DNA from: a virus
Reading direction: 5' to 3' (one strand)
Length of the DNA stretch: 64,000 nucleotides
Virus record (IMG/VR): IMGVR_UViG_3300038417_000475
Coordinates: 21,152-85,151 of that record
Shown here: in pieces, positions 10 through 54,944 of the stretch
Numbering within the stretch: the first letter of the stretch is position 1
Layout: every line of letters begins with the position of its first letter
Program-made: the position numbers and the translations under genes
Notes under the pieces: generated by a model
Database searches by the model: none
What the model saw: only the letters and a program-made list of their open reading frames with translations
Told to the model about the DNA's origin: nothing

Positions 10-228
10 GTGGCCGACAGGGAGCAAACCTGCACTCACTGTCAGGGAACGATTGAACCTGCGTGCTCAGAGGAAACTCTGCCAGAAGATGCACGCCTGT
101 GTAGGGCAGGGTACGTCTGGACAAGGCCAGAAGATCAGAAGGTGATGGATCAGTGTCCTGACTGCCAGTTCTTCCCTGAGAACTGTGCGGAGAGCAAACA
201 GACACCCTGCCAGTATTGGGCAACGTAA
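10..228 (+). CDS. Small Cys-rich protein, possibly 5'-truncated
   Basis: A 72-residue protein with four CxxC-like or Cys pairs (CTHC near the start, CPDC in the middle, two more Cys near the end), so probably a zinc-binding mini-protein. The start used is GTG, but the frame stays open to the first base of the window, so the true start may lie outside. It overlaps the longest frame of the next gene but not the preferred Ku start. No family recognised. Confidence 0.5.
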   Translation: MADREQTCTHCQGTIEPACSEETLPEDARLCRAGYVWTRPEDQKVMDQCPDCQFFPENCAESKQTPCQYWAT

Positions 229-284
229 GCAACCTCATGTCGAGTGACAGAGGAATAGATAGAGAAGGAGCAGGAGTTGAGAGA

Positions 285-1190
285 ATGAAAGCATGGCGAA
301 ACACGGCAATCGTTATGGGAGTTATGACCATCCCTGTGAAGCTGTACTCTGCTACAAGCGATCACGATATGGAGCGGCATAATCTCCACGCCAAAGACGG
401 CGGAAGGGCAAAGCAGGGAAGCAAATTCTGTAGCAAGTGCAAGGCCGATTTAGATGATACGAACACGGTGAAGGGCTACGAGGTCGGCAAGGATAGAGAT
501 ATCATCCTGACTCCGCAGGAGCTTGCCACCATCAGCCTCAAGTCGGCCAAGGCAGTTGAGATCGTGGAGTTTACCGCCAGTGACAAGGTTGACCCACGGA
601 TGCCTGAGAATCACTACTTCGTTGCACCAGAGGACATGGGGAAGAAGGGCTTCTCCATCCTGCTGGAGACGATGCAGGACACGGGGCTGTTTGCCATCGG
701 CAGGGTAGTCTTCAGTGAGACCAAGGAGACCCTTGTCCTGATGCGACCCTTCGGCCACGTCCTGATGCTGCACACGCTGGCATGGGCTGATGAGCTGAGG
801 GATGCCTCAGAGCTTACCGATACCACCGTGGCAATCTCCGACAAAGAGCGTGAGCTTGGCAAGATGCTGGTGGAAGTTATGGTCGGCGATGGTGACATTA
901 GCAAGTTCCACGACCAGTATCAGGAACAGCTCAGGGCTTTGATCGAGACGAAGGGGTTGGGCGGTGTCATCGAAGTCCAGCCAGAACGTACTGAGGAACA
1001 GGTGGCGGCTGTGGATGCAGCGGAGCAGCTCCTGGCGAGCATTGTGGCGGTACAGAAGAGTCAGAAGAGCAAGGGCACAGTTCTCCGGGCTGGCGAAGGG
1101 GAAGTCCCCACGGAGTTGGAGCCTGAGTTGTCGCCCAAGCCGAAGAAAACGGCCAAGGCGAAACGCTCTGCCAAAACAGTAGCAGCTTAG
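285..1190 (+). CDS. ku: Ku protein, bacterial NHEJ type
   Basis: Bacterial-type Ku, which binds double-strand DNA ends as a homodimer and recruits the ligase for non-homologous end joining. From ATG 285 the N-terminus (WRNTAIVMGVMTIPVKLYSA) matches the family opening of a short basic start followed by G-x-x-x-I-P-V-K-L-Y. A CSKC pair lies in the linker after it. About 301 residues is typical length. The C-terminus is rich in Lys and Pro (PKPKKTAKAKR), like the DNA-binding tails of many bacterial Ku proteins. An in-frame start at 216 would add 23 residues unlike the family, so 285 is preferred. A LigD-type ligase follows 330 bp downstream, completing the two-component system. Ku is known from a few phages but is uncommon. 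Confidence 0.93.
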   Translation: MKAWRNTAIVMGVMTIPVKLYSATSDHDMERHNLHAKDGGRAKQGSKFCSKCKADLDDTNTVKGYEVGKDRDIILTPQELATISLKSAKAVEIVEFTASDKVDPRMPENHYFVAPEDMGKKGFSILLETMQDTGLFAIGRVVFSETKETLVLMRPFGHVLMLHTLAWADELRDASELTDTTVAISDKERELGKMLVEVMVGDGDISKFHDQYQEQLRALIETKGLGGVIEVQPERTEEQVAAVDAAEQLLASIVAVQKSQKSKGTVLRAGEGEVPTELEPELSPKPKKTAKAKRSAKTVAA

Positions 1191-1350
1191 TGAGACTAGA
1201 CTGCGTTCGGATTGAGCCTAGCCCTTTGCGCTAGGATTGAGCCTGACCCTCTAGCCTCTCACGTCAGGGCGAGTCCGTAGACACCGTGTCATTGACACAG
1301 ATGCCAGCGGAACGCCCTGCGGTGAGCGACTAGCTCGAAAGGGGGTCTAT
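1191..1350 (+). other. Noncoding gap between ku and the ligase unit
   Basis: A 160-bp spacer without a convincing gene. It contains the 10-bp phrase GGATTGAGCC twice (near 1209 and 1232) and a small perfect hairpin GTGTC-ATT-GACAC at about 1287-1299. A purine-rich RBS (AAAGGGGG) precedes the ATG at 1351. It is probably a structured leader; no known riboswitch class was recognised. Confidence 0.35.
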
Positions 1351-1524
1351 ATGGAAATACCTGTCGTAGTGCAGGCTTCCAGTCTCGCCTATCCTCTGGA
1401 AGAGGAAGACTTCTTTGCGGAAGAGCGACTCCGCAAGGAGATGGGAAATCAGGAAGCCCGCCATCTGGATGATGGCGATGAGTGGCCTTGCCAGCATCTT
1501 TCTACCAATGGGGGTGGGCTATGA
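1351..1524 (+). CDS. Small acidic protein upstream of the ligase
   Basis: A 57-residue frame from ATG 1351, preceded by a clear AAAGGGGG ribosome site, ending in TGA at 1522-1524. It is acidic (LEEEDFFAEER) with a single Cys. Its stop overlaps the ATG of the ligase at 1521 as ATGA, so it is probably translationally coupled to the ligase. No family recognised. Confidence 0.6.
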   Translation: MEIPVVVQASSLAYPLEEEDFFAEERLRKEMGNQEARHLDDGDEWPCQHLSTNGGGL

Positions 1525-2423
1525 ATCTACCGATGAAGTGCCAGAAGCAGAAGAAACCCTTCAGCTCCAGCCGACATCTCTTTGAGCCAAAGGTGGACGG
1601 TTGGCGGTTGAGGATGGTCACCAAGACAGAGTATGGTCAGGTCGAGCTGGATGGAGAGGTGGCTGTCCTGGATGCCCAGGGCGTGCCCCGCCTTCACCTT
1701 GTCCAGCAAAGAGGACAGGACGATCCCCTGTTTCTCAAGACAGCCATGCGGGATTACCCCGCCCTGTTCTTTGGGTTCGATATCCTTCAGTGTGGGGGCA
1801 GGGGTGATCTACACCTGACTCCCCTCAAGACTCGAAAACGGATACTGACGGATATTTGGCCTGCTCTGAGGAAGAACGGCGTTCATCTCTACAGCAAGAA
1901 CGGGCATGATATAACAGGCCGCTTCCCTGAGCTGGGCGATCCCCGGAATTGCAAGCTCCTGTCCTGGGTTGAGGGAGATGGGGAAGCACTTTTCGAGAAA
2001 CTCTGTCTTGCTGGTTGGGAAGGCGTGGTGGGCAAAGAGCTGGAGTCGCCATACCTCTACGACAGCAGGACGAAGCTCTGGATCGCCTCCAAGAGGCCGA
2101 AGATCGAGGGGGATTTCGTCATCTGCGGTGCTACCCTGGGCAAGGGAAACCGTGAGGGCTTGGTCGGCTCCCTGATACTCGGAGAGCCAACGTCTAGGGG
2201 ACTGATCTACATGGGAGAGGCCGGCACAGGACTCGGCTTCGCCGATCTGCGAAGGTTGACCGAGAAGCTGTCCCGCAAGGATGCCTGTCCCTTTACTGAC
2301 AGGCCGAAGATCGACGGATTCTGGTTCTGGTCTGCGCCCACAGTCAAGGTGGAGATCGCCTATGTCGAGCGCACCAAGGATAACAAGCTGCGGGAGCCGG
2401 TGATAAAGCGCCCGCCGATGTGA
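1521..2423 (+). CDS. ATP-dependent DNA ligase, LigD ligase-domain type
   Basis: ATP-dependent DNA ligase that would seal ends held by Ku. Nucleotidyltransferase motifs are visible in order: motif I KVDGWR (adenylated Lys), motif III ELDGEV, IIIa FGFDIL, motif IV EGVVGKE, and motif V with Lys in WIASKRPK. An OB-fold-like C-terminal part follows (VGSLILGE onwards). About 300 residues fits a stand-alone LigD ligase domain with no primase or phosphoesterase domain. ATG 1521 is chosen because it overlaps the stop of the preceding small gene; an in-frame ATG at 1482 would extend through that gene. Confidence 0.92.
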   Translation: MNLPMKCQKQKKPFSSSRHLFEPKVDGWRLRMVTKTEYGQVELDGEVAVLDAQGVPRLHLVQQRGQDDPLFLKTAMRDYPALFFGFDILQCGGRGDLHLTPLKTRKRILTDIWPALRKNGVHLYSKNGHDITGRFPELGDPRNCKLLSWVEGDGEALFEKLCLAGWEGVVGKELESPYLYDSRTKLWIASKRPKIEGDFVICGATLGKGNREGLVGSLILGEPTSRGLIYMGEAGTGLGFADLRRLTEKLSRKDACPFTDRPKIDGFWFWSAPTVKVEIAYVERTKDNKLREPVIKRPPM

Positions 2424-17533: not shown

Positions 17534-18196
17534 CTAACCTCCTTCATAGGGAGTGAACTTGAACCACGGAATTATGATCTCGACGGGCTTACCGTTTATA
17601 GGAGGCTTCCCGCTAACTAACCACAGCTGAAAGTAGGCTAGCAATGGCTTCTGGGGAACGTAGATCAAAGGCTGCTTCGGAGCGTAAGTCCAGCTAGCAC
17701 ACTGCTTTCCCTTGCTGTCGTAGATGGCGAACATGACCTTCGTCTTTGTCCGGAACAGCTTGTGCACCGTCGGACCGGCTGGAATGCCTTTGAACAAATG
17801 GTCAACAAGGTTATAACCGTCCATCTCAGGAAACACAGTGAACTTCCCTGGTGGGCAGTTCGGATCCCTCCACCTTGTTATCTCTATGTCACACTCCTCA
17901 GTCTGCTTCTTCGTGGCAGGGGTATCATGCGGAAAAATGAATAGGCCAAAACACACTCCTGGGTCGAGAGCATTGATATCACTCTGAACATGCCACTCCG
18001 ATGTTCCACTTCCATAGAGTATTTGGGTTCTGGCCTCTGCACAAGGCCATTGATCACCTACATGGGTAATATTCAGGTGCAATGCCCCCTTGTCATCTAC
18101 AGTGACATTGCCAGGGCTCCACTTGTTTGGGCCAGGTGCGCCATCATAATCCCTTACATCCAGAGTAAGACCCATATAATTCACAGTGTTTCCCAT
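17534..18196 (-). CDS. GH16-like beta-jelly-roll glycoside hydrolase
   Basis: A 220-residue beta-rich protein with ECDIEITRW at about residue 100, matching the GH16 catalytic signature E-x-D-x-x-E, here E-C-D-I-E with nucleophile and acid/base Glu, in the form typical of bacterial GH16 relatives. Aromatic strands follow. No signal peptide is visible. GH16 enzymes cleave beta-glucans, agars and similar polymers; on a virion it could degrade capsule or biofilm. It lies directly downstream of the tRNA on the same promoter. Confidence 0.7.
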   Translation of the reverse strand: MGNTVNYMGLTLDVRDYDGAPGPNKWSPGNVTVDDKGALHLNITHVGDQWPCAEARTQILYGSGTSEWHVQSDINALDPGVCFGLFIFPHDTPATKKQTEECDIEITRWRDPNCPPGKFTVFPEMDGYNLVDHLFKGIPAGPTVHKLFRTKTKVMFAIYDSKGKQCASWTYAPKQPLIYVPQKPLLAYFQLWLVSGKPPINGKPVEIIIPWFKFTPYEGG

Positions 18197-18219: not shown

Positions 18220-18297
18220 TGGTGGCGGGGGTTGGATTTGAACCAACGACCTCCGGGTTATGGGCCCGACGAGCTGACCTGGCTGCTCTACCCCGCT
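18220..18297 (-). tRNA. Initiator-type tRNA-Met(CAU)
   Basis: A complete cloverleaf with encoded CCA. Initiator hallmarks: a mismatched first pair (A1 against C72), A11:U24 in the D stem, and three consecutive G:C pairs in the anticodon stem around CAU. Loop base 33 reads C rather than the nearly universal U. T arm GTTGG-TTCAAAT-CCAAC. Length 78 with CCA. The promoter at 18304-18333 would transcribe it together with the GH16 gene. Confidence 0.9.
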
Positions 18298-18458: not shown

Positions 18459-18773
18459 TCATTCCTCTTGTGAGCCTTCCGCCAATTTTGGAAACTCCCA
18501 CCGGGACACCGGCTCGGGCTGAAACGCTACCGCCAGCTCCCTGGCTATCTCTTGTGTGGTAGGAGTGATCGAGTAGACAGCCTGAGGGGAGTAGAATTGC
18601 GTTGTCATCTCAGCCGGATTTCCGAATCCGACAGGGCATTTCTTGGGGATATCGAGCCGCAGAAAGGATACACCACCGATCTGTTGCTCGGTCATCAGTC
18701 CTGCCATGCGCCGGTGGCCGAAAAGCTCCAGAATACACCACTCCTTGAATGTCCCATCAGATGATTCAGCCAT
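18459..18773 (-). CDS. Conserved phage/plasmid hypothetical
   Basis: 104 residues from ATG 18773 behind AAGGAGG. The pattern EWCILELFGHRRMAGLMTEQ, then LLR-L-D-I-P, T-Q-F-Y and Y-S-I-T-P resembles a small family seen repeatedly in phages and plasmids (often W-x-x-L-E-L-x-G-H-x-x-x-A-G). Function unknown. Confidence 0.65.
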   Translation of the reverse strand: MAESSDGTFKEWCILELFGHRRMAGLMTEQQIGGVSFLRLDIPKKCPVGFGNPAEMTTQFYSPQAVYSITPTTQEIARELAVAFQPEPVSRWEFPKLAEGSQEE

Positions 18774-18951
18774 GTTCCTCCTTGAAGTACTCCTCCAGGA
18801 TGGCATAAAGTTCCCTGGCCACCTTCTCCGCCTCCTCGGGATTCTTGCCCACCCATTTCATAATGACGGAGCTGGGATCCAGAATCCGGAATTTGCCCAG
18901 ATGGGGTTTGAGCTTTTCCAGTGCCTTCGAATAAAGTTCAGCGATACTCAC
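18766..18951 (-). CDS. Small helical protein, 61 aa
   Basis: Two amphipathic helices (IAELYSKALEKLKPHL and PEEAEKVARELYAILEEY). The stop overlaps the next start by 8 bp. It is wedged between a glycosyltransferase and a conserved hypothetical. No family recognised. Confidence 0.6.
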   Translation of the reverse strand: MSIAELYSKALEKLKPHLGKFRILDPSSVIMKWVGKNPEEAEKVARELYAILEEYFKEEHG

Positions 18952-19932: not shown

Positions 19933-22575
19933 CTAGATGACGGCTGCAGCCAGGAGCTTGGCTGCATTACCCCCAAGAGCCGAGACCGGCTTCCGGCCAA
20001 GGATAAGACCGGCCGAGACATAATCCAGAGCAGGAGAGCCTGACGGAGTCAGTACAAAGTAAGCGTTTTTCTTGGCTCTCCAGCTTACAGGGTGAGTCGC
20101 TATTCCGAACGTGTCATTTCCTGATACAGTAACGGAGAGACCAGTAGGATTTCCGTCAGTGTACAAGGTAAGAGTCCAGGACTTTCCTACTCCCGGAGCC
20201 GTCTTGCACTTCAAGCAGATGGTGTTAGGATAGCAGTCATAAGGAGTTATGCAGACTTCATTCCCCGGTATGGAAGCATCTACCCAGCTTATGTTGCAGG
20301 CATTGACTTCTATCTCCGCTCTAGTGGGGATGGTATTAAATCCCGGCATCCCCCTGGTCAGGAGGTAGACCTCGTAGTCCATTCCGATGAAGCAGAAGCC
20401 AAAGTAAGGCCAACCTGGGGGGCTTCCTCCCGACGCAGTCGCTTCCCACCAGAACTGGTCACCAGGTACAAAGTCAATTACCGTGGTGTCGTCGTAGTAG
20501 ACGTCGTTATGGCCTTGGGCGACAGGGACACCGTGGAAGGTGACACTGGTACTGACTCCGTTCTTCATCAGGGTAAGGTCGGTAGTATCACTTCCTCCAC
20601 CAGTCCAACCTGTCATGGCAGCGAAGTACTTCATCTGGCCAGTATGGACCATCGTGGTCTTGGATTGTTCCAGTGTTCCACCGCTGCCTCCAAGCAGTCC
20701 ACTGTAGCTTGGAGGGAAAGCCTGAAGATATCCTTGGGACATGGGGAAGTAGCCATCTGTCAGAGGCGTGAAGTCAGCTGACCAAGAGAATTGCCCATTC
20801 TGTGCACAGGGGACGTACCAGGAGAGTATGTCTCCTTTTTGTATTTCGCAAAGGGTGGCCAGATCTTCATGGTATTTTTCGTTAGCGTAGAAGTCGAGGT
20901 GTAGAAGGTCTACAGTCTGGATAACATGGTTTACATCCAAATAGCTGCGTCGGAGGGTGTAGGTGACAGGCGTACTAATCATCACCGGGTCATCTGTTAG
21001 CTGAAGCCGGACATTCTGGAGCTGGCCAGAGATGGTGATGATGCCAGAAGGAGGAACTGAATCTTCAACCCAGATAGAGCCCTGGAACTGCCCTATGTTC
21101 TGGTTCCCGCCAATGCTTGCTCCAGTGAACCAGCCAAGCAGGGAGAATGTAGTGAGCCCAAGAGTATGGACGCTGACCTCCGCTCCATACCCGTAGTGGC
21201 CATTGCTGCCCAGAGCGTAAGCCCGGTAGTAATAGATGGTAGCTGGAGTCAGGCCACTCAGTCCCGTAGAAAAAGGTCCTGTCCCAAAGCTTCCTCCGCT
21301 AGAGCACCAGTTAGGATATCCGGAAAGACTTGGGGCTACATCTCCCGGGTCACCGTGAGGTGATGTATCCCAGACAAAGCACTCATTGGTGATGACAGTG
21401 TCATTGATAGCGGTTACATTCCCATTCAGGGTGGCTACTGTTTTGCCTACGGAAGTTGCTGGCTGAGTTGTCACCGTAGGCACTCCGCTGAGAATAGTGA
21501 ATCCGCCCAACAGCGTGCCGGTGCCATAGGAGTTGGTGACAGAGATATCCCGAGCGCCAACAGCAGCCCCATTCGCAATAGTGATATTCGCTGTGATCTG
21601 GTTGTCGTTATCTACGGTGAAGCTGTTGACGGTGATGCCAGCTCCGTAGCTCACTACCGTGGCTCCGGTGAAGTTGGAGCCGGCTATGACATCGCTGGCG
21701 ATGGTAGCTCCCTGGTGGCCTGAGTTGGGAGTAGCTGATGTGGGCAGCGGGGCAGCAGTGAGCACAGTGAAGCCATCAGTTAGAGTTCCTGTACCATCCG
21801 GCGAGGTGACAGAGACATCTCTCGCTCCCAGGACCGCTCCAGAAGCTATAGCGATATCTACCGTGATATGAGAATCATCCACCACATCGAGGCCGCTTAC
21901 TGTTATCCCGGCACCGAAGCTCACAGAAGTGGCTCCAGTGAAGTGAGCTCCACCAATAGCCACCCCAAGGATAGTAGCCCCCTGAATACCGGTGTTCGGA
22001 GTGACTGAGAGCACAGAAGGAGCCGGCGGAACGGGCAGGCTGTAATCTATCATGAGAGAAACCCCGCTCATCGCAGCATAGTTCATCCAGTTCGATCTCT
22101 CATTGTGGTCATCCACAAACATCTCAACATTGTCTATCGAAAAGGCGTTGACGAGCTCCTGGATGATGGCGGTTACATCGAAGGGGTTATCGCCGTTTAT
22201 CCAGGTATGGCTTACCACATTTACTAAGGCCAGGGTTACCAGTCCTGTATCAACCACTGTCCCCCCAGGGACAAGGCCTCTCCTGGCCATATAGTCAGCA
22301 AGGTCAGCTATTAGGCCAGGTGAAGCGACTAGCTGGGCCTTAATATAGTTGGTTGGGGTAGCGTTACTATATCCACAGGTGACAGTTAAGATTGCGCTGT
22401 TGATGGTCGACCCTAGTGGAATGGTAACACCGAGAGGGTGATGAGAGCCGAAACCAAATCTGTCTACTCCATAATATGCTATGCTTCCTACAGCAAGGCC
22501 ATAGCCGGAGTTTTGCCATGGACCACCATAGTCTACGTCGTAGAGTTGGTCAGCGGCTATAGTGATAACTGGCAT
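19933..22575 (-). CDS. Large beta-domain surface protein with IPT/TIG repeats
   Basis: 880 residues. An N-terminal beta-rich domain (about 1-185), two IPT/TIG repeats at about 190-275 and 278-362 (each V/P-S-x-T-P-N-x-G-x-Q-G-A-T to GTGTL..GFT-V/I-L), then an Fn3-like domain (about 365-460, LNGNVTAIN to TPATIYYYRAYALG) and two further beta domains. No signal peptide, fitting a virion-attached fibre or adhesin exposed after assembly. Ser, Thr and Gly are abundant. Strong RBS AAAGAGGA. No lytic enzyme motif seen. Confidence 0.7.
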   Translation of the reverse strand: MPVITIAADQLYDVDYGGPWQNSGYGLAVGSIAYYGVDRFGFGSHHPLGVTIPLGSTINSAILTVTCGYSNATPTNYIKAQLVASPGLIADLADYMARRGLVPGGTVVDTGLVTLALVNVVSHTWINGDNPFDVTAIIQELVNAFSIDNVEMFVDDHNERSNWMNYAAMSGVSLMIDYSLPVPPAPSVLSVTPNTGIQGATILGVAIGGAHFTGATSVSFGAGITVSGLDVVDDSHITVDIAIASGAVLGARDVSVTSPDGTGTLTDGFTVLTAAPLPTSATPNSGHQGATIASDVIAGSNFTGATVVSYGAGITVNSFTVDNDNQITANITIANGAAVGARDISVTNSYGTGTLLGGFTILSGVPTVTTQPATSVGKTVATLNGNVTAINDTVITNECFVWDTSPHGDPGDVAPSLSGYPNWCSSGGSFGTGPFSTGLSGLTPATIYYYRAYALGSNGHYGYGAEVSVHTLGLTTFSLLGWFTGASIGGNQNIGQFQGSIWVEDSVPPSGIITISGQLQNVRLQLTDDPVMISTPVTYTLRRSYLDVNHVIQTVDLLHLDFYANEKYHEDLATLCEIQKGDILSWYVPCAQNGQFSWSADFTPLTDGYFPMSQGYLQAFPPSYSGLLGGSGGTLEQSKTTMVHTGQMKYFAAMTGWTGGGSDTTDLTLMKNGVSTSVTFHGVPVAQGHNDVYYDDTTVIDFVPGDQFWWEATASGGSPPGWPYFGFCFIGMDYEVYLLTRGMPGFNTIPTRAEIEVNACNISWVDASIPGNEVCITPYDCYPNTICLKCKTAPGVGKSWTLTLYTDGNPTGLSVTVSGNDTFGIATHPVSWRAKKNAYFVLTPSGSPALDYVSAGLILGRKPVSALGGNAAKLLAAAVI

Positions 22576-29069: not shown

Positions 29070-31388
29070 TTACATTTGATTGTCGATATACGTTTTCAGA
29101 AGCGAATAATTTATAAGTCCCCAACCGTAATCATTGCTCTTGGCTGAGGCATAATCGCCATATATCGACATCGCAGCCTTGATATGCTCCGTGGTCAGGA
29201 CCTTCCCCTTTTTACGGGCATACTGGATCGCCAGGGCTGTCACGTATGCGGCATGGGGTGTGGCCATTGACGTGCCGGAAATCGCGGCAAGCTGCGGAGG
29301 TCCGTCTCCAAGCTGCATGGCTGCGATATATCCGTTGGAAGTCGAAAGGATATCCACACCCGGAGCCACCACGTCGGGCTTGATGAATCCGGCTTTCGTG
29401 GGGCCTCGAGAGGAGAAGCTGGCTATGTTTCCGTGGATATCCACAGCTCCGACAGTCAACGCATCCGGTGAACAGCCGGGGCCTCCTACAGTCATCTGGC
29501 CAGGGCCGCTGTTGCCGGCAGCGATACAACAGATGATCCCAAGTTGCGTCATGGCGGTGATGGCCTGGCATTCCGGGTCATTCAGGTAATCATCGGGTTC
29601 GTCCCCTCCCAAAGACATCGAGATGATATCGGCTTTCCAGTGCAGAGCGTTCATCAGGCCGGCCAGTATCCAGCTTGCCATCCCTACGCCGATCCCGCCG
29701 CCCAGGACTTTGAACGGACGAACCTCTGCTCCCGGAGCTCCGCCCTTGAGCAACGCTCCTCGCGCAGGCCCGGCGAGAACCTTAAAAGGCCTCCCGCCGA
29801 TGCAGGTGTTACACCAGGTATTGTGGATAAAAGCCATACCTTGTTTACCAGCAAGGTAATAAGGGCTTTCTGGGTCAAGGGTGAAATCATAGAGGAACCC
29901 CTTGAAGTCTATCTCCTCAACAGATTTGGGCAATAGGTAAGGGGCTGTTCTGTGAACTTCAGTGTAGAGAGGCCTTTTCAGCTTCAGGTAGGGAATCAAC
30001 GCCTCGGTCATCCGGGTAAATCCTGCATCTACAGCAGATACTTGGTAACAAACCTTCTTCCCTTTACCAGAAGGTTTCTGTTTTGTAAACCGTCCTCCAA
30101 AACCTAGAACACCGAACAGGCTAACGATTTGCTGTGCCAGTTGCCTTGAAGTAGTGCTAACCCTGCATCTAGCACGATCAGGGTCGAAATGACCATCACC
30201 ATCTATGATCCCGGCCAGCACTGCCAGGAGTACATTCGTGGGTTGTTTTAAGAGCCTCTCCGGTATGGTATTCTCTTTCCGTCTTAGACCTAGCGCAATG
30301 AACTCTCTTTTCAATCCTGATACCTCAATGCTTCTACTCTTCTTGCGTTTTTTGGGAGTCCAAGCACAATAATGATAGCCGAGCTGCTTCAGATATGTCT
30401 CAATAGCAGGCCCTTCGTCATGGTGTAGAGAAAGGTTCACGGCACTGTGATGGAAACAGCCCTCAGCTATGAACAGCCCTGCCAAGTAGGCCAGATCTGT
30501 ATTCACAGTCTGTACGAAAGGCAGATTGATGATCTGCTCATTCGTAGCCAGACCGTAATTTCTATGGGACTGAATCAGGTCAGAAGCTCTCACATCCCTG
30601 TATCTTTTGCACCGTGGCTCATAGATTTTGAATGGATGCCACGGAGTTGTCACAAATTCAGATGTCCCGGCTTTCACTTTTATCAATTTGCCGTCGAAAG
30701 GAATCTTGTGTACAGCCAAGACCCTTACAGGTTTTCTGAAGCCGATCGTCCATGTGGGATCTACGGGTATTTTGGTAAATCCCAGTTCACTCTGGACCTC
30801 TGGAACCTTCAAATTCTCATAGAGGTCTTGGAATCGCACAAGGCCACAGAACGTAGTATAGACAAAGGCTTCTCCCTCAATGCAACCATGGCCGACCTCA
30901 TCGAACATAAAAGGCTGGCCGGGTACCGATGATTTACCATGTCCGAAGTATCCCTGGACCGCGAAATCCAAGGCTGTACCGGTATCGAGCACTGCAACTT
31001 TTACACCTTTGCCGGTGATACCGTCCGCGGCAGCTACGTCCGCTCCCACCATCTGCCCGCTCACCGATGTCGGGATCCTCTCGTGCGAGGAGTCGGAGGC
31101 GGCATAAGCCATGGCTTTCGCCGGCCCCGTGATGGGGTTGGAGAGGAAGAGGTTGATGAACTTGGAAAACTTCTGATCTACCGGCATGGTGATGCGGATG
31201 GCCCGTATCTGCTCCGGTTTCACGTTGAGCACATAAGGCACAGCTTCTATCGCCGCTACCTGGTTAGGCTGGATATCCACCTTCACAAAATTGAAATCGA
31301 GAGGAGCAGGGAATATACCCATCTTGGTCAGAGAAATGTTGACCTCGGCAAGATGAATAGGGTCTACCTGGACAAGGTATTTAGCCAT
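29070..31388 (-). CDS. Subtilisin-like serine protease with intein
   Basis: A 772-residue precursor of an S8 subtilase. Catalytic Asp135 in VAVLDTG, His167 in EVGHG, Asn626 in AAGNSGPG (oxyanion hole) and Ser707 in GTSMATPH. An N-terminal inhibitor-like domain (about 1-70, strand-rich, VNISL, VPYVLNV) may be a propeptide. A 355-residue intein splits the His motif between Gly168 and Thr524. Excision would give a 417-residue protease with an intact GHGT motif. No signal peptide, so it may act inside the cell or on virion proteins (a maturation protease). Promoter not seen. Confidence 0.9.
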   Translation of the reverse strand: MAKYLVQVDPIHLAEVNISLTKMGIFPAPLDFNFVKVDIQPNQVAAIEAVPYVLNVKPEQIRAIRITMPVDQKFSKFINLFLSNPITGPAKAMAYAASDSSHERIPTSVSGQMVGADVAAADGITGKGVKVAVLDTGTALDFAVQGYFGHGKSSVPGQPFMFDEVGHGCIEGEAFVYTTFCGLVRFQDLYENLKVPEVQSELGFTKIPVDPTWTIGFRKPVRVLAVHKIPFDGKLIKVKAGTSEFVTTPWHPFKIYEPRCKRYRDVRASDLIQSHRNYGLATNEQIINLPFVQTVNTDLAYLAGLFIAEGCFHHSAVNLSLHHDEGPAIETYLKQLGYHYCAWTPKKRKKSRSIEVSGLKREFIALGLRRKENTIPERLLKQPTNVLLAVLAGIIDGDGHFDPDRARCRVSTTSRQLAQQIVSLFGVLGFGGRFTKQKPSGKGKKVCYQVSAVDAGFTRMTEALIPYLKLKRPLYTEVHRTAPYLLPKSVEEIDFKGFLYDFTLDPESPYYLAGKQGMAFIHNTWCNTCIGGRPFKVLAGPARGALLKGGAPGAEVRPFKVLGGGIGVGMASWILAGLMNALHWKADIISMSLGGDEPDDYLNDPECQAITAMTQLGIICCIAAGNSGPGQMTVGGPGCSPDALTVGAVDIHGNIASFSSRGPTKAGFIKPDVVAPGVDILSTSNGYIAAMQLGDGPPQLAAISGTSMATPHAAYVTALAIQYARKKGKVLTTEHIKAAMSIYGDYASAKSNDYGWGLINYSLLKTYIDNQM
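29820..30884 (-). other. LAGLIDADG intein in the subtilase active site
   Basis: Residues 169-523 of the protease precursor. N-terminal Cys169 (CIEGEAFVYT), block-B-like TTPWH around 246-251, two LAGLIDADG motifs (LAGLFIAEG at 302-310 and LAGIIDGDG at 391-399), C-terminal GMAFIHN ending in His-Asn523, and +1 Thr. All hallmarks needed for splicing and homing are visible. It is inserted between the Gly and Thr of the catalytic HGT. Confidence 0.9.
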
Positions 31389-35934: not shown

Positions 35935-37083
35935 TCAAGCCCAGTAGAGCAAAATTCCATACGTTTTGAAGCCGGCGCCCATTGTGAGCACCAGGCCCCA
36001 GTCGCCCGGCTGGGCCTGCTCTTTCGCCAGGCGCCCGATTGAAGCAATGGTAGCAGAACTCTGGTTACCCTGCTGCCTCAGGATTTGCCTCGAGTAAGCC
36101 AGCTTCTCCTCCGGGATCTTCAGGCGATCGCGGATATTGTCCAGGACTTTGACCCCGCCCGGGTGAATAATAAGGTGTTTGATGTCGCGCAGCGTCATCC
36201 CCGGGACCTGTTCCAGGATTCTGTTTACCACCCTCTCGACCAGCACAGGTGCCACCTTCGGCACATCCTTGTCCAGCTTCACCTTCAGCCGGCCGTCCAC
36301 CCAGTCAAAGCCAAGATAGTCAATATAGCGGCGGTCGAACTCTTCGGCAAAAGCCCAGATCCAGGGGTGCTTCGGGTTGTCATCCTGCCCGATCAAACAG
36401 GCACAGGCCCCGTCGCTGAAAATGGCATTGGCCACCGTATTCTCCAGGTCTTTCTCCGGAGCCGGGTAGAACGTGGCGGTGCAGATCTCCGCCGTTATTA
36501 CCAGCGCGGGGTAGCCCGTCTGCATGAAATGGTCATGGGCCCTGCGGATAGCCGGAGCTCCGCCAACGCACCCGCCTCCGATCATATCGGTATGCTCAAT
36601 ATCAGAGGGCAGCTTCAGCAGCATCGAATAAAAGTAACTCAGAGAGGGGCAGAGCAGCCGGGGTTGCGTTGTGGTAGCAAAGGTGATTGAGCCGATGTCC
36701 TTACGGATCTCTAAACCTTCGATGCACTGTAAGGCGGCTTCCAGCCCCAGGTTTACAGCACCCGCCTCATATTCCTGGCACATCTGCTCAAAGGTCATAT
36801 TACGCAGCTTGCTGGGATGAATCCAGCACGGCCGCCGGTCGATCCCGGAATTCTTGAAGATATTCCAGACCCGTTGAGACGTGTAGCCCAGGGCATCATA
36901 TGCTTCCTTCTGGGTCACAAATGTCTTGGGGACTGCGGTACCCAGTGAGATGATCTTGGCCCTCTTCGGCTTCCGATAATAGGCCGCCGAGCGTTGGGGG
37001 GCTGCCTCTTCCTGCCGTTTAATAGTTTCAGGAGTCCGGGTATCCGGAAAGCCGTTCAGGTCTGGTCTGGTTGCAATCATCAT
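35935..37083 (-). CDS. Type III polyketide synthase (chalcone-synthase-like)
   Basis: 382 residues, the usual size of a thiolase-fold type III PKS or related KAS III. Catalytic triad visible: Cys172 in GGGCVGG, His307 in IIHPGG, Asn340 in GNQSS; the C-terminal G-A-G-F loop follows. His-Pro-Gly-Gly is the chalcone-synthase form. Such enzymes condense an acyl-CoA with malonyl-CoA to give alkyl pyrones, resorcinols or similar. The 42-residue N-terminal extension is basic and probably disordered. Surrounded by prenyl-lipid genes. Confidence 0.9.
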   Translation of the reverse strand: MMIATRPDLNGFPDTRTPETIKRQEEAAPQRSAAYYRKPKRAKIISLGTAVPKTFVTQKEAYDALGYTSQRVWNIFKNSGIDRRPCWIHPSKLRNMTFEQMCQEYEAGAVNLGLEAALQCIEGLEIRKDIGSITFATTTQPRLLCPSLSYFYSMLLKLPSDIEHTDMIGGGCVGGAPAIRRAHDHFMQTGYPALVITAEICTATFYPAPEKDLENTVANAIFSDGACACLIGQDDNPKHPWIWAFAEEFDRRYIDYLGFDWVDGRLKVKLDKDVPKVAPVLVERVVNRILEQVPGMTLRDIKHLIIHPGGVKVLDNIRDRLKIPEEKLAYSRQILRQQGNQSSATIASIGRLAKEQAQPGDWGLVLTMGAGFKTYGILLYWA

Positions 37084-54050: not shown

Positions 54051-54944
54051 ATGAATGACTATCTCCAGAAGCTCTACGACCACTATGAGAGCCGGCTGGC
54101 CTCCAAGGGCTACAATCGAACCCAATACCTGAAATGGGTGCAAGCCTTCCTGGAGTACTGCGAGGGCAGTGACTTCAAAACCGAAGCTAATTTCCAGGAT
54201 GAGGATGCGGTCCGCGCGAAGATTCAGGCCTATTTCATCAAGCTCAAGAGGGGCTACGGTGATGGCTCCCTGGGAACGATCTGGTCCATCCTGCGGGCCT
54301 TCTTCAACCGCAATCACCTCGAATGGCCTTTCGGCAAAGGGGAAGCCCCCTCACAGGCTGAAGACAAGAAACAGCACCCTGCCCTCGACCCTGGCCTGGT
54401 GAATGAGATCATCCTGGCAGTCAGACAAAAGGGCAGCCCGGAAGAGCAGGCTTTTCTGGCCTTGAGCTCTACCTATGGACTCCGCCGCGGAGAGCTTCTG
54501 GCCCTCACTCCTGAGGAATTCAAAATCAAGGACCGTACTATATATGTAGCGACCCTGAAACATGGGCGCGCCCGCAGCCATCTCATTCCTGAAGAGATAG
54601 TGCCCTATCTGGAGGGATATGACTTCAGCCGGAAGATCTCCCGGAGCAGCCTGGCTATCCTGTGGTACAAGATCGAAGACAAGGCGGGGCTGGTCCATTA
54701 TCCGAGGGTGGGCTTCCACAGCATCCGGCGCACGCTGAATACTTGTCTGGAGCAGCATTTCGGTGAGGTTCAAATAAAGACCTTCCTGCGGCATAAGGGC
54801 GGCAGTGACATGACCATGGCGTACACAGCCACCAAGTTCATTACCCGGGAAGGCTCTACCAACAAGCTGGCTGCCGTCTTGAGCGACCTGGACAAGCGGG
54901 TATTTGAAGTCCATCCGTTCCTGCCGGCATGGAGGGAGACATGA
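54051..54944 (+). CDS. int: Tyrosine recombinase (integrase)
   Basis: 297 residues. Core-binding N-terminal helical domain (about 1-95), catalytic domain with Arg in STYGLRRGEL, Lys in LKHGRAR, H-x-x-R in FHSIRRTL, His in FLRHKGG and Tyr in MAYTATKF. It would catalyse site-specific integration or resolution of circular DNA. No attachment site could be identified. Confidence 0.9.
   Translation: MNDYLQKLYDHYESRLASKGYNRTQYLKWVQAFLEYCEGSDFKTEANFQDEDAVRAKIQAYFIKLKRGYGDGSLGTIWSILRAFFNRNHLEWPFGKGEAPSQAEDKKQHPALDPGLVNEIILAVRQKGSPEEQAFLALSSTYGLRRGELLALTPEEFKIKDRTIYVATLKHGRARSHLIPEEIVPYLEGYDFSRKISRSSLAILWYKIEDKAGLVHYPRVGFHSIRRTLNTCLEQHFGEVQIKTFLRHKGGSDMTMAYTATKFITREGSTNKLAAVLSDLDKRVFEVHPFLPAWRET

Follow-up and report, generated by a model that had tools for sequence, protein, structure and literature searches.

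Does an element classed as viral carry a working initiator tRNA, and what do two unusual bases in that tRNA signify? The window analysed here, a 64,000-nucleotide stretch (positions 21,152 to 85,151) of the IMG/VR virus record IMGVR_UViG_3300038417_000475, contains a single tRNA gene, which ARAGORN places on the minus strand at 18220-18297 and identifies as tRNA-Met(cat); no other tRNA was found in the whole record of 85,151 bases. The gene matches the Rfam tRNA family RF00005 with 57.4 bits (E 9.4e-10), the match ending at position 18223.

The 78-nt tRNA-fMet(CAU) gene reads AGCGGGG UA GAGC AGCCAGGUCA GCUC G UCGGG CCCAUAA CCCGG AGGUC GUUGG UUCAAAU CCAAC CCCCGCC ACCA, and the cloverleaf is its predicted minimum-energy fold. 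The 5' acceptor strand AGCGGGG (18291..18297, minus strand) places A1 (18297) opposite C72 (18224), so that the 1:72 position holds an A1:C72 mismatch and no Watson-Crick pair, followed by the pairs G2:C71, C3:G70 and G4:C69; A73 and an encoded 3' CCA (18220..18222, minus strand) complete the acceptor end. The R11:Y24 pair of bacterial initiators is present as A11:U24. In the anticodon arm, UCGGG-CCCAUAA-CCCGG (18253..18269, minus strand), three consecutive G:C pairs are formed by G29-31 and C39-41, a U:G pair is found at 27:43, and the loop consists of C32, C33, the CAU anticodon, A37 and A38. The combination of CAU and A73 is likewise that of a bacterial initiator tRNA-fMet, in which U33 is usual but not defining. 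The original prediction had listed the unpaired 1-72, A11:U24, the three G:C pairs and CAU as initiator features and had singled out C33 and the A1:C72 mismatch, and all of these are present in the sequence. The determinants of formylation listed in an earlier work (PMC9976931) are those found in this tRNA, and its CCA is encoded, a feature shared by the majority of initiator genes in bacteria (PMC5143459).

The window tRNA is identical to the E. coli initiator metZ at 68/78 positions (87%), as compared to 47/80 (59%) for each of the elongators metU and metT and 49/79 (62%) for ileX (Ile2). Since metZ is far closer than metT, metU or ileX, an elongator Met or Ile2 identity is ruled out (a score as elongator Met or Ile would, according to the original prediction, have refuted it) and the assignment as a bacterial-type initiator stands. 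An archaeal initiator is also ruled out, since archaeal initiators have an A1:U72 pair where this tRNA has A1:C72; set against the archaeal reading are also the DnaB-like, DnaN-like and UvrD genes and the GGAGG-type ribosome sites on the element.

It had been considered from the outset that C33 might be a sequencing error. A second record, IMGVR_UViG_3300018015_000425, carries the same 78 bases, is identical to the window across 12,694 bases and matches it at 99.99% over an overlapping stretch of 12,660 bases; it is the same element in another assembly. Since both assemblies agree on the base, an assembly error is an unlikely source of C33, provided that the two do not share reads.

The tRNA lies between two genes of the same strand, 161 nt downstream of an ORF of 115 aa (18459..18806, minus strand; PHROG 29525, function unknown) and ahead of an ORF of 220 aa (17534..18196, minus strand; no family match) whose ATG, preceded by GGAGG, is 23 nt past the tRNA CCA. 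A promoter scan near the tRNA gave matches at about the chance level and none above it. Genes matched on the element encode a tyrosine integrase (54051..54944, plus strand), ParA- and ParB-like proteins, Ku and a ligase, a sliding-clamp-like protein, the UvrD helicase and a DnaB N-terminal domain, and RusA-like and HNH matches are also found on the IMG/VR record. No terminase, portal or capsid gene could be recognised on the 85,151-base record, and the terms virus and virus-encoded therefore rest on the IMG/VR call; for two candidate structural proteins, structures predicted from single sequences had a mean pLDDT of 33 and 29, too low to be informative. The element may be a plasmid, a phage-plasmid or a phage fragment. 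The integrase and the ParA/ParB-like genes on the record suggest a phage-plasmid or plasmid-like element. Related viral contigs, sought for identification of the host, returned the same element only or none, no diverged relatives of the element have been found so far, and tblastn in cultured phages yielded distant helicase, Ku and DUF5131 matches spread over many hosts, with no match for the other queries.

Several other genes of the element deserve mention. At 216-2423 (plus strand) a Ku-like protein, which resembles the Ku of some mycobacteriophages, is followed by an ATP-dependent DNA ligase, the two forming a non-homologous end-joining pair. Close to the catalytic His motif (GHG / T), a subtilase (S8) at 29070-31388 (minus strand) is interrupted by a long segment that matches LAGLIDADG homing endonucleases and, with Cys first and HN last before Thr, is an apparent intein. 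A second protein apparently split by an intein-like insert (CAVPGTLTPTHRGV... to ...GGLSHN/C, judged by eye) is encoded on another contig (L397:9764-11245, plus strand). The window at 35935-37083 (minus strand) also encodes a type III polyketide synthase or chalcone-synthase-like protein (Pfam PF00195, PF02797) on this viral-classed contig.

C33 had been described as a feature that is otherwise shown by some eukaryotic initiators, and this turned out to be wrong, as it is found in bacterial and archaeal genomes as well as in viral tRNAs. The exact anticodon arm CGGGCCCATAACCCG is present in ARAGORN-confirmed tRNAs of Weissella, Leuconostocaceae, Fructilactobacillus, Erysipelotrichaceae, Phycisphaerales, Patescibacteria, Thermoplasmata and Pacearchaeota. 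Weissella confusa has C33 in both of its matched initiator copies, and the sole matched initiator copy of a Phycisphaerales chromosome has C33; C33 is therefore compatible with bacterial initiation. It is rare in most bacteria: in samples drawn by phylum from Planctomycetota, Actinomycetota, the one to which a Deltaproteobacteria genome (G010) belongs, Bacillota, Bacteroidota and Pseudomonadota, one further genome among roughly 388 matched, chosen centres excluded, carries it. In the sampled genomes of Pseudomonas and Cupriavidus, position 33 is U.

On viral contigs, a pattern accepting C or T at position 33 yielded 13 C33 and 89 U33 initiators confirmed by ARAGORN (13/102, unbiased at position 33), and C33 makes up 8-13% of the initiator tRNAs there, these viral counts being sequences and not independent events, from contigs of which some may hold host DNA. 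Comparison of C33 in viruses and in cells gives a Fisher p of about 8e-9, an approximate value as the cell patterns were slightly different. With positions 32, 33, 37 and 38 left free, the pattern yielded 96 distinct viral initiators. The loop of 22 of these differs from CUCAUAA, through 9, 8, 6 and 15 changes at 32, 33, 37 and 38, respectively. Applied to the genomes of 64 Pseudomonadota and 52 Actinomycetota, the same free pattern returned CUCAUAA only (0/116 depart, p 6e-9). About a fifth of the viral initiators thus leave a loop that is invariant in the bacterial genomes of the two sampled phyla, and 32 and 38 change as a pair, from C/A to U/C: of the 9 initiators with U32, 8 have C38 (p 3e-9). 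This covariation suggests that the geometry of the viral loops is preserved and that they stay functional and are not decaying. Initiator-like viral tRNAs in which U32 and C38 have changed jointly (UUCAUAC and variants) are seen, for example, on L514, L521, L533 and L556; the sampled bacterial genomes yielded no such loops. Two viral contigs (L003 and L016) have in common a tRNA-Met-like gene of about 90 nt in total, in which the loop is CCCAUAA and the variable region is long.

The acceptor end varies too. A1:C72 is present in 8 of the 96 viral initiators and in none of 48 cell sequences (p 0.052), and 20 of the 55 distinct viral initiators beginning with A have it. C33 and A1:C72 occur together in several viral contigs (L020, L037, L059, L115 and L501).

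The gene probably encodes a working bacterial-type initiator that is carried to keep initiation supplied and in which C33 and A1:C72 are compatible variants recurrent in viruses. The sequences show the gene, its intact identity elements, C33 in both matched W. confusa copies and the recurrence of each variant in phages, from which the expression, charging, formylation and benefit of the tRNA are to be distinguished as what we infer. Through CAU and A73 it would be aminoacylated with methionine by the host, the unpaired 1:72 together with G2:C71, C3:G70 and G4:C69 would permit formylation, and A11:U24 with the three G:C pairs would bring it into the P site of the ribosome. By carrying an initiator tRNA, the mobile element would keep translation initiation supplied during infection, although a single initiator gene would add little if host initiators are abundant. 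According to the original prediction, an initiator of its own could favour the mRNAs of the virus. It had further supposed that many of these mRNAs are leaderless or use weak starts, a view that finds no support here. In a mechanically defined set of 74 non-overlapping ORFs, some of them false, a Shine-Dalgarno core precedes the first start in 28, a larger share than the 14% seen for internal starts (p about 3e-7); in 42 of the 74 it precedes some start within the first 30 codons.

It is quite possible, though we hold it short of probable, that the viral tRNA redundantly duplicates a host gene and is under relaxed constraint, with C33 as a near-neutral substitution. The variation of the T-loop in 8 of the 96 viral initiators and the Watson-Crick 1:72 pair in 17 of them, as compared to 0/48 cell sequences, are in line with this, and because the 1:72 mismatch is lost in those 17, relaxed constraint accounts for some of what is observed. 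However, the copy in the window is structurally perfect, and the 32/38 combination is kept among the loop changes of viral initiators.

A more tentative proposal is that of a putative nuclease evasion, in which C33 and other loop changes would make the tRNAs hard to cleave for the host anticodon nucleases that attack tRNA-fMet (VapC-type, at A38/C39), so that phage initiation would outlast the host initiators. The departures of the viral loops from CUCAUAA, with none in the Pseudomonadota and Actinomycetota genomes, speak for it, as does the larger number of changes in the anticodon loop than in the T-loop of the same 96 tRNAs (22 vs 8, McNemar p 0.004), although T54-A58 probably tolerate less change than 32 and 38 and the T-loop is therefore no neutral control. 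VapC toxins of enteric bacteria cleave tRNA-fMet between 38 and 39 (PMC4105405), and position 38, beside this reported cut, is the most changed. Evasion through the anticodon loop has been proposed for other phage tRNAs; however, tRNA-fMet tends to be avoided by phages of hosts with VapC-LT2 (PMC10264068). As far as the sequences go, the viral loop excess with 38 the most changed fits this proposal but also relaxed constraint. We consider it doubtful, and a shade more so than the proposal itself, that phage initiator loops at 32, 33, 37 and 38 were altered by selection against host toxins that cut tRNA-fMet, with C33 as one variant. The loop pattern nevertheless offers a concrete way to test whether the nuclease-evasion hypothesis extends to the tRNA with which every protein begins; C33, one of the loop variants, is already used by some bacteria.

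It seems unlikely that C33 is not a viral change and was inherited from a C33-using host lineage, for example Phycisphaerales or Patescibacteria. Such lineages exist, but A1:C72 is absent from the sampled cell initiators (0/48, and 0/58 of the C33 cell tRNAs), and of the cell tRNAs retrieved, the nearest (L415) has U33 and U1:U72. Finally, tRNA genes are used by many integrases and the element encodes one, but a remnant of an integration site in place of an expressed gene is made highly improbable by the full length of the tRNA, by the integrase about 36 kb off, which means that the tRNA is not at the usual place of an attachment site, and by the finding of no second partial copy in the record.

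Among the closest known systems is the bacterial initiator tRNA-fMet of E. coli (metZWV), with which the window tRNA shares, besides the 87% identity, every initiator identity element, the encoded CCA and the UUCAAAU T-loop; it differs in having C33 for U33, A1:C72 for C1:A72 and one additional base in the D-loop. Metazoan cytosolic initiator tRNAs have C33 as well (PMC9023262) but are unformylated and lack the bacterial 1:72 mismatch and the R11:Y24 pair (PMC9976931). The phage tRNAs described by van den Berg et al. 2023 (PMC10264068) resemble it in a loop change adjoining the anticodon; in contrast to it, they are mainly elongators, tRNA-fMet tending to be avoided where VapC-LT2 is present. 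Phage tRNA-fMet genes have been named for phiLM21-like prophages (PMC12429752). Among cultured phages, initiators with A1:C72 are carried by the Mycobacterium phages MoMoMixon (Bxz1 group) and Myrna and by Escherichia phage phAPEC8; those of MoMoMixon and Myrna, however, have U33 and lie amid other phage tRNA genes. Initiators with C33 are carried by Pseudomonas phage phPA-G (a Detrevirus) and Janthinobacterium phage Donnerlittchen, both with the CCCAUAA anticodon loop of the window tRNA, whereas their 1:72 positions are C1:U72 and U1:A72, respectively, and the D-arm differs. Since C33 and A1:C72 recur in viral contigs and each is known in cultured phages, the window tRNA, judged by its sequence, is a further example of the already known phage-type initiators.
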